Positions 52,318-53,610 of a stretch of 64,000 nt of DNA are shown here, in pieces. A program made the position numbers and the translations under genes. This DNA is from Woeseiaceae bacterium. Lineage in GTDB: Bacteria; Pseudomonadota; Gammaproteobacteria; Steroidobacterales; Woeseiaceae. Below the pieces are notes generated by a model, which was not told the DNA's origin, made no database searches, and saw only the letters and a list, made by a program, of their open reading frames with translations. Numbering within the stretch: position 1 is the first letter of the stretch; the number at the start of each line of letters is the position of its first letter. The stretch spans positions 1-64,000 of the forward strand of contig JAJFKP010000055.1 of assembly GCA_021773135.1 (NCBI GenBank). The letters are read 5' to 3'.

Positions 52318-52349
52318 GCCCCGATCAACAATGATCGGGGCATTTTTTT
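52318..52349 (+). terminator. Rho-independent terminator
   Basis: GCCCCGATCA (52318-52327) pairs perfectly with TGATCGGGGC (52332-52341) around a 4-base loop, and seven T follow. It closes the two-gene amidohydrolase operon. Confidence 0.93.
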
Positions 52350-52400
52350 GGACTGAATACCGCCAAGTGCTTTGATCCGTAAATCTCCACGGTTGCCGGT

Positions 52401-52430
52401 TAACGCAAAGTGCGTTACATTAACTATACT
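52401..52430 (+). promoter_or_regulatory. Palindromic operator overlapping a promoter
   Basis: TAACGCA (52401-52407) and TGCGTTA (52411-52417) are perfect arms with a 3-base spacer. TATACT (52425-52430) fits a -10 box, and the expected -35 position falls inside the palindrome, 20 bases before the ribbon-helix-helix gene. Binding there would block transcription, as in autoregulated antitoxin operons. The regulator is inferred to be the product of the next gene. Confidence 0.6.
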
Positions 52431-52449
52431 TTCGCTACACAATGTATCA

Positions 52450-52644
52450 ATGCCACGCACCAAGATCGCAACGCTGAATCTGAGAATCGACCCCAGCATC
52501 AAGGATGCCGTGCGCGAGGCTGCGGATATGGAGCACCGGAGCGTGGCGAACATGGTCGAGATGTTGATACGGCGGTACTGCGACGAGGCAGGAATCGTTA
52601 TACCTGAACAAAACGAAATGTTCGCGAGGAAGCAAAATGGATGA
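52450..52644 (+). CDS. Ribbon-helix-helix DNA-binding protein
   Basis: 64 residues: PRTKIATLNLRIDPSIKDAVREAADMEHRSVANMVEMLIRRYCDEAG. The NLRIDPSIKDAVREAA strand-helix and the RSVANMVEMLIRRY helix match CopG/Arc-type folds. ATG 52450 is preferred to 52372, which lies upstream of the promoter boxes. Its last 8 bases overlap the next gene, and a palindrome sits over its promoter, so autoregulation is likely. Confidence 0.8.
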   Translation: MPRTKIATLNLRIDPSIKDAVREAADMEHRSVANMVEMLIRRYCDEAGIVIPEQNEMFARKQNG

Positions 52645-52891
52645 AAAGATGATCAGGGCGATGGTCACTGCCGGGGCTATCAAGAAAATCAATATCATAG
52701 GCAACGGTGCCCGGTTTCATATCGAGGCCAATACGCCCAATGGGTCAGTCACGGCGGAAACCAAAAAGGGCAAGATCAAGACCTGGGTAACCCTCGATGC
52801 TGCAGCCAAATGGGTCCGCTCGATCGGCATCGGCACCGCCAATATCAATCTCTCGCGCTGGCAGCCCGGGCAACGCGAACTCCAGATCTGA
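52637..52891 (+). CDS. Small conserved protein partnered with the ribbon-helix-helix gene
   Basis: 84 residues: DEKMIRAMVTAGAIKKINIIGNGARFHIEANTPNGSVTAETKKGKIKTWVTLDAAAKWVRSIGIGTANINLSRWQPGQ. The pattern (beta strands, KxKTWxxLDAAAKWVRSxGIG, SRW) matches, from memory, a widespread family sometimes annotated as ParC-like partition-associated proteins. The activity is not known to me. It overlaps the upstream regulator by 8 bases, an arrangement common in toxin-antitoxin and plasmid-stability modules, though toxicity is unproven. Confidence 0.72.
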   Translation: MDEKMIRAMVTAGAIKKINIIGNGARFHIEANTPNGSVTAETKKGKIKTWVTLDAAAKWVRSIGIGTANINLSRWQPGQRELQI

Positions 52892-53055: not shown

Positions 53056-53610
53056 GTGGCAACGCAAACTTCCTGTAGAATTCGACTCGTGCGTCCCATT
53101 GGAATTGTTGCTGTGATTAGAATTTGCGCGTTGTTAACAACTCTCGCCTTAGCGCCATTGGCTTTCTGTGACGAACAGGAAACTTCGCACGATGGACATG
53201 AGGCCCTGCACGTTGAAATTCACAAGAATCCCGGCTGCGCCTGCTGCGACGTCTGGGCGGATCATTTGCGTTCTTTTGGCTTCTCGGTGGCGTCGACAGA
53301 AGATCCGGCAATTCTCGGATTCAAGGCGAAGCACGGCATTCCGGACCCGCTCATGTCATGTCACACCGCTGTCATCGACGGTTATTTCATCGAGGGTCAC
53401 GTGCCGGCGCGGGACATACTTCGCCTGCTGAAAGAAAAACCTGAGGCCGTAACCGGCATCGCCGTTCCCGGCATGCCTCTCGGCTCACCTGGCATGGAAC
53501 ACGACCGCCCGCAGGATTTCAACACGATTGCGCTGCTTTCTGACGGTTCAGCGTATGTATTCGAGTCGCATCAGGCCGGCGACGATTTTTCAAAGGACGA
53601 AGAGGACTAG
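53056..53610 (+). CDS. DUF411 metal-binding-type periplasmic protein
   Basis: 184 residues with a hydrophobic N-terminus. HVEIHKNPGCACCDVWADHLRSFGFSV, GIPDPLMSCHTAVIDGYFIEGHVPARDILRLL and GIAVPGMPLGSPGME are the DUF411 signature, with CACC and SCH as likely copper-binding thiols. Such proteins are often linked to copper handling. The frame opens at GTG 53056; GTG 53113 gives a more ordinary signal peptide and may be the true start. Its stop overlaps the convergent PLP-enzyme gene. Confidence 0.85.
   Translation: MATQTSCRIRLVRPIGIVAVIRICALLTTLALAPLAFCDEQETSHDGHEALHVEIHKNPGCACCDVWADHLRSFGFSVASTEDPAILGFKAKHGIPDPLMSCHTAVIDGYFIEGHVPARDILRLLKEKPEAVTGIAVPGMPLGSPGMEHDRPQDFNTIALLSDGSAYVFESHQAGDDFSKDEED

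Follow-up and report, generated by a model that had tools for sequence, protein, structure and literature searches.

A conserved ribbon-helix-helix gene pair in Woeseiaceae, with an 11-bp half-site array and a ParC-like partner: a probable autorepressed regulator-effector unit

Introduction

The closest described relatives of the locus treated here are relBE and other type II toxin-antitoxin modules with ribbon-helix-helix (RHH) antitoxins, and the ParR/parC and Omega type RHH systems. In Escherichia coli RelBE, as reported in PMC2812701, the RHH protein RelB binds its operator better together with RelE, which stabilises the RHH dimers at neighbouring half-sites; this is the nearest experimental model. 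ParR of plasmid R1 needs two of its 11-bp repeats, according to PMC9426499.

How does a small gene pair from a Woeseiaceae bacterium compare? The pair lies in a DNA stretch of 64,000 nucleotides, termed the window. It shares with the type II modules two overlapping small genes, an RHH protein, half-sites that recur ahead of the start codon and a likely co-regulation by the second protein, but here the second protein is outside the toxin families and matches an antitoxin domain. With ParR/parC and Omega it has in common an RHH protein and phased repeats at its own promoter region; it differs in having no NTPase and a single short array. The parts are known in kind, and the combination is new. 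In the literature searched, Woeseiaceae and ribbon-helix-helix were not found together, nor was there mention of 'ParC family', 'partition-associated protein' or NF041544, a protein family that the partner matches below its cut-off.

The gene pair and its setting

A preliminary description of the locus gave a 64-residue RHH protein whose gene overlaps that of an 84-residue partner by 8 bases, and a palindrome, TAACGCA-AAG-TGCGTTA. Coordinates and lengths are exact, and the palindrome is present, without mismatch, at 52401-52417. The features are as follows.

52318-52351, + strand: intrinsic terminator of the upstream amidohydrolase gene, with a 10-bp stem, 7 G-C pairs and a T tail
52401-52407, - strand: left arm of the palindrome, the inverted site at lattice position -11, which varies among relatives
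52411-52421, + strand: conserved operator box TGCGTTACATT (lattice position 0), 39 bases 5' of the RHH start codon
52422-52451, + strand: lattice positions +11, +22 and +33, degenerate and weak in the window but strong in relatives
52450-52644, + strand: RHH gene, 64 aa, ribbon TLNLR, single copy in the genome
52637-52644, + strand: 8-base overlap ATGGATGA, containing the partner start and the RHH stop, a sign of translational coupling
52637-52891, + strand: partner gene, 84 aa, ParC-like domain, a distant relative of NF041544 and of the RelB-type antitoxin N-terminal domain

The terminator closes the amidohydrolase gene that precedes the pair, which therefore looks like a unit of its own. By family scan, the five neighbouring proteins are two amidohydrolases, a DUF411 protein, a Cys/Met PLP enzyme and a carboxypeptidase; there is no mobile-element gene, partition ATPase/NTPase, toxin or defence gene among these five, and PADLOC gave no match of note. 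The DUF411 gene (53056-53610) is the next gene 3' of the pair, and members of the same family are found near the pair in loci L003 and L006.

Conservation of the pair

The partner had been thought common on chromosomes, and it is indeed chromosomal and widespread: it is found in 30 of 41 Woeseiaceae genomes, one copy each, and in 20 of the 23 better assemblies. Contigs of named genomes hold 21 partner loci, 11 of them labelled Woeseiaceae or Woeseia; the other 10 carry labels of Gammaproteobacteria, Pseudomonadales or Proteobacteria only. Outside Woeseiaceae the partner is sparse, with matches in 11 of 59 genomes in an order-level search (six of these from Woeseiaceae) and in 7 of 274 in a class-level search (two from Woeseiaceae, two weak).

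The RHH gene lies directly 5' of the partner in 32 of the 33 loci read, and 29 of these 32 retain the 8-base overlap; a short gap separates the genes in L004, L008 and L051. The RHH gene is likewise present in the distant members L067, L068, L069, L076, L077 and L078. L021 and L075 have the partner but lack the RHH gene, and at the class level 17 of 22 genomes with an RHH match have no partner match, so neither gene strictly needs the other. Flanking genes are common within groups of related loci and different between groups and genera.

Both genes are evidently under strong purifying selection, with synonymous sites near saturation and proteins hardly altered. For the partner the median dN/dS is about 0.09, with 18 of 31 comparisons unsaturated; for the RHH core it is about 0.08 (15 of 31 unsaturated, one of which, L002, is misaligned and not meaningful). 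Set A1 omits L018 and L020, and in the comparison of upstream regions the L002 row was taken from a wrong start. To judge by this conservation, the pair is a real, conserved unit, better defined than at first description.

Could the pair be a type II toxin-antitoxin module, with the partner as an undescribed toxin and the RHH protein as antitoxin and autorepressor? Such modules have the same gene order, gene sizes, overlap and operator design. However, a gene that 30 of 41 family genomes keep in single copy, with a dN/dS of about 0.09, is unlike a patchy addiction module, and the occurrence of the partner without the RHH gene also speaks against this reading, which is taken up again below with the partner protein.

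The operator region

Nine perfect 7-bp inverted repeats with a 3-bp spacer occur in the 64-kb window; with such repeats so common, the palindrome alone proves little. For counts of box and palindrome, 37 loci were aligned on the conserved box. The perfect palindrome, which the preliminary description took for the operator, is present in only three of them (the window, L010 and L050), whereas its right half, TGCGTTAC, is exact in 36, and the 11-mer TGCGTTACATT, i.e. TGCGTTAC followed by ATT, in 31. The box lies about 40 bases before the RHH start codon across loci, and it is this conservation in place that raises it above chance. The conserved operator is an array of half-sites at 11-bp spacing and not the perfect palindrome. 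The palindrome was also said to sit over the promoter, but a sigma-70 scan found no promoter on the coding strand and only a weak one on the opposite strand.

The evidence for an array comes from the spacing of second half-sites. Of the 21 that match at 7 or all 8 of 8 positions, 20 are separated from the main box by a multiple of 11 bp, which is true of only 9 of the 86 offsets tested; L077, with an exact box that is inverted, was left out of this count. Mean half-site scores peak at -11 (inverted), at +11 and +22 (direct) and at +33 (inverted), with z-scores that ignore the kinship of the loci. In the window itself only the -11 site reaches 7 of 8, and in L068, which is from another family, there are two exact boxes 11 bp apart. 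The placement of second sites on multiples of 11 bp points to a helically phased array as the operator, with the palindrome as its -11/0 pair.

The exact 11-mer occurs twice in the 4.5-Mb genome, here (the sole intergenic copy) and inside a long open frame; the full palindrome, at up to one mismatch, occurs once. The RHH gene has no paralogue in this genome. With a box that is essentially unique and an RHH gene in single copy, a regulon is unlikely and local autoregulation likely.

The combination of an RHH protein with direct repeats of 11 bp is reminiscent of ParR from plasmid R1, and the partner matches a family named 'partition-associated'. Might the array be a centromere and the pair a segregation adaptor, similar to ParR or ParG? 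There is one intergenic site in 4.5 Mb, the array is short and lies close against its own start codon, and no ATPase, as would be expected of a ParABS or ParMRC system, is found among the five neighbours scanned. The ParC named in plasmid NAH7, considered as a namesake of the partner, is a different protein, and it is described in PMC12421886 as dispensable there. A role in partition is therefore very improbable.

The ribbon and the box

The RHH protein matches Pfam TacA1 with 22.1 bits (cut-off 21), and its scores for RHH_1 and RHH_5 are just under their cut-offs; a search of its profile against solved structures, by sequence, gave no match. On the profile match and the alternating polar strand, it is assigned to the ribbon-helix-helix proteins. 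The ribbon, TLNLR, is invariant in 17 aligned rows; its middle residue is Asn10 in the protein of the window. Asn and other polar ribbon residues are established as base contacts in RHH proteins (PMC10853773).

The set of RHH relatives comes from 274 class genomes, 22 of which have a match at 1e-6, and from plasmids; the ribbon table is without L108-L111, whose frames are fragmentary or interrupted. Relatives outside Woeseiaceae with Asn at the middle ribbon position (TLNLR) have the exact TGCGTTAC in 7 of 11 loci, and those with Thr or Ser in 0 of 13 (Fisher p 0.001, a guide value, as loci are treated as independent). Conversely, GCAGTACATT is found at 9 or 10 of 10 matches in 9 of the 13 Thr/Ser loci vs none of the 11 Asn loci (p 0.0006, likewise a guide, as GCAGTACATT was in addition chosen from the loci on which it was tested). 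The 11-mers TGCGTTACATT and TGCAGTACATT differ solely at two adjacent bases.

The box thus changes together with a DNA-contacting ribbon residue, which argues that the RHH protein reads the TGCGTTAC box. The protein may bind a repeated half-site at its own promoter, as conservation and covariation suggest. The relatives would constitute a group with an apparent two-base, one-residue specificity switch, GCAGTACATT-type boxes going with Thr/Ser and TGCGTTAC with Asn.

Two further observations concern the RHH relatives. One genome (G180) has two TLNLR paralogues without a partner (L097 and L114), one of them with a perfect inverted box, TGCGTTACAATGTAACGCA. The PEQxxLF tail was considered as a mark of contact with the partner and rejected, as it is also present in the partner-less L097, L105 and L114 and is lost in part of Woeseiaceae.

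RHH relatives before restriction-modification genes

Where are the RHH relatives that have no partner? Ten proteins encoded 3' of them were scanned: seven match HsdR, HsdM, N6-methylase and DUF499 families, and those downstream in L097, L098 and L099 gave no family match. On plasmids of Thauera, Sphingobium, Citrobacter and E. coli, RHH relatives precede genes annotated as methyltransferase or helicase. In all, RHH relatives directly 5' of restriction-modification or DUF499 genes are represented by L098-L107, L112 and L113 and by the plasmid loci L023-L026 and L092, where L026 is an E. coli IncF plasmid. This placement suggests a group of RHH regulators of such operons, from which the Woeseiaceae protein may have been derived. 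Within the limited literature searched, RHH regulators of restriction-modification were not recognised in print. The likeness to the pair extends to the RHH family, the position and an 11-bp box with two bases changed; the differences are that restriction or methylase genes replace the partner and that the ribbon has Thr/Ser for Asn.

The pair might then be a switch for defence or anti-restriction, with a captured restriction-modification regulator as its RHH protein and a restriction-related effector or sensor as its partner. The like box in the same position before restriction and methylase genes, and the RHH relatives before such genes on plasmids, are consistent with this, but beside the pair there is neither a defence gene nor a PADLOC match of note, and the neighbours differ between genera. 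Such a switch is improbable, if less so than a toxin-antitoxin module.

The partner protein

No toxin motif had been recognised in the partner, and this stands: Pfam, NCBIfam and PADLOC gave no toxin match for either protein, and Pfam yielded nothing convincing for the partner. NCBIfam NF041544, 'ParC family partition-associated protein', gives a near full-length match below threshold in all 31 partners (best E 3.4e-5). The window protein matches over residues 5-77 with 15.2 bits, where the curated cut-off is 95, and so is outside the family as defined; there are also no par genes around the pair. No protein scores above that cut-off in 274 genomes or in 398.

The partner is also related to RelB-type antitoxins that have a ParC-like N-terminus, known from plasmids of Variovorax, Pseudomonas, Xanthomonas, Burkholderia and Rhizobium. 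Profile comparison of the 31 partners with seven of these gives an hhalign E of 7e-13 over residues 1-80; alignments that add stand-alone plasmid ParC-like proteins give 7e-13 and 2.5e-9, and a control against the RHH profile gives 0.21. The antitoxins continue into a RelB-like C-terminal part and are accompanied by a toxin gene, whereas the partner stops after the domain. By full-length profile homology, the partner is placed in a ParC-like domain group wider than NF041544.

The ParC-like domain is found in two other settings. On plasmids, e.g. pIPO2 and pTer331, it makes up a whole protein by itself. It is also the N-terminal half of proteins some 150 aa long, whose C-terminal half mostly (not in L083) matches RelB-type antitoxins and whose gene is followed by one for a RelE/ParE toxin. 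This antitoxin half, for which there is no Pfam model, is present in L062, L063, L081-L084, L089, L115, L116, L119, L121 and L122, on many plasmids as well as some chromosomes, with RelE/ParE-like toxins beside it. On a small plasmid of Aeromonas caviae (L091:3019-3822), a stand-alone ParC-like gene comes before a TraY-domain RelB-like antitoxin and a RelE/ParE toxin, possibly a three-part module. The plasmid link that the preliminary description raised holds in its indirect form, by way of distant ParC-like relatives; no direct plasmid homologue of the window partner was found, and the connection runs through more distant chromosomal relatives.

Since the profile match is with an antitoxin N-terminal domain, the partner is related to an antitoxin domain and not to a toxin. 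The earlier suggestion of a toxin is thus not supported: the ParC-like domain does accompany RelE/ParE toxins on plasmids, but in those operons it belongs to the antitoxin, and the operon here has no toxin family match, although the reading requires a toxin gene. A toxin-antitoxin module is therefore a poor explanation of the pair. On present evidence from comparative sequence data, the pair is neither a toxin-antitoxin nor a partition module.

Structure comparison gives a hint of another kind. Searches of the partner against solved structures by sequence returned chance-level matches only. A second structure model (mean pLDDT 89), used with its fold search in place of the first (pLDDT 64), predicts an alpha-beta-beta-beta-alpha-beta arrangement. 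Its best PDB likeness is a small protein of the eukaryotic large ribosomal subunit, which we take to be eL38 (VIA-align Z 7.4, 2.5 A, 67 residues; a Z under 8 may reflect only a common arrangement and is too weak for a functional claim). Other folds, e.g. the FtsH periplasmic domain (VIA Z 5.1), were set aside as tied background. A phage or viral origin was likewise rejected, with no relative in viral_contigs or phage records and PHROG matches that are weak and of unknown function.

The ribosomal likeness and an operator unique in the genome are in keeping with an ordinary small operon, in which the RHH protein merely keeps the partner low and the partner is a nucleic-acid-binding protein with a function unrelated to it. 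Against this, the Z value may reflect no more than a common arrangement, and Foldseek found no match to the model at E 0.001 or better. An ordinary operon is about as doubtful as a toxin-antitoxin module.

Proposed mechanism

The autoregulated two-gene RHH module of the preliminary description is upheld as a prediction by the co-conserved genes, the overlap, the box (36 of 37 loci) and the lattice (20 of 21 second sites). The explanation that we favour, and consider somewhat probable, is an autorepressed regulator-effector pair, in which the RHH protein is a self-repressor on the array and the non-toxin ParC-like partner a co-regulator or effector. RHH dimers would bind TGCGTTAC half-sites on one helix face, every 11 bp, just 5' of their own start codon, as the covariation suggests, and the bound dimers would shut down the operon. 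The second gene would be translated in step with the first via the overlapping stop and start codons, a coupling suggested by the conserved overlap. The partner appears to be a stand-alone copy of the ParC-like domain that is seen in other settings as the N-terminal half of RelB-type antitoxins. Its most likely role is to bind the RHH protein and adjust array occupancy as a co-repressor; alternatively, it may be an effector whose level the RHH protein sets.

As part of the same explanation, and at the same strength, the locus, on the chromosome and inherited vertically, would descend from components in circulation among plasmid maintenance and restriction-modification operons. A bolder version, which we hold to be rather unlikely, is that of a domesticated, toxin-free relic of both kinds of control, now a chromosomal switch across the family. 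In it an antitoxin ParC-like domain would have lost its toxin and been remade into an RHH co-regulator, and the DNA code of the RHH protein, with 11-bp boxes read through one ribbon residue, would be shared with the seemingly undescribed RHH regulators of restriction-modification.

Significance

The analysis offers a hypothesis for a gene pair present in most genomes of one bacterial family. It links RHH autorepressors, ParC-like plasmid and antitoxin proteins and the control of restriction-modification, which are usually handled apart. The correspondence between ribbon residue and box, if true, would allow operators to be predicted from protein sequence.
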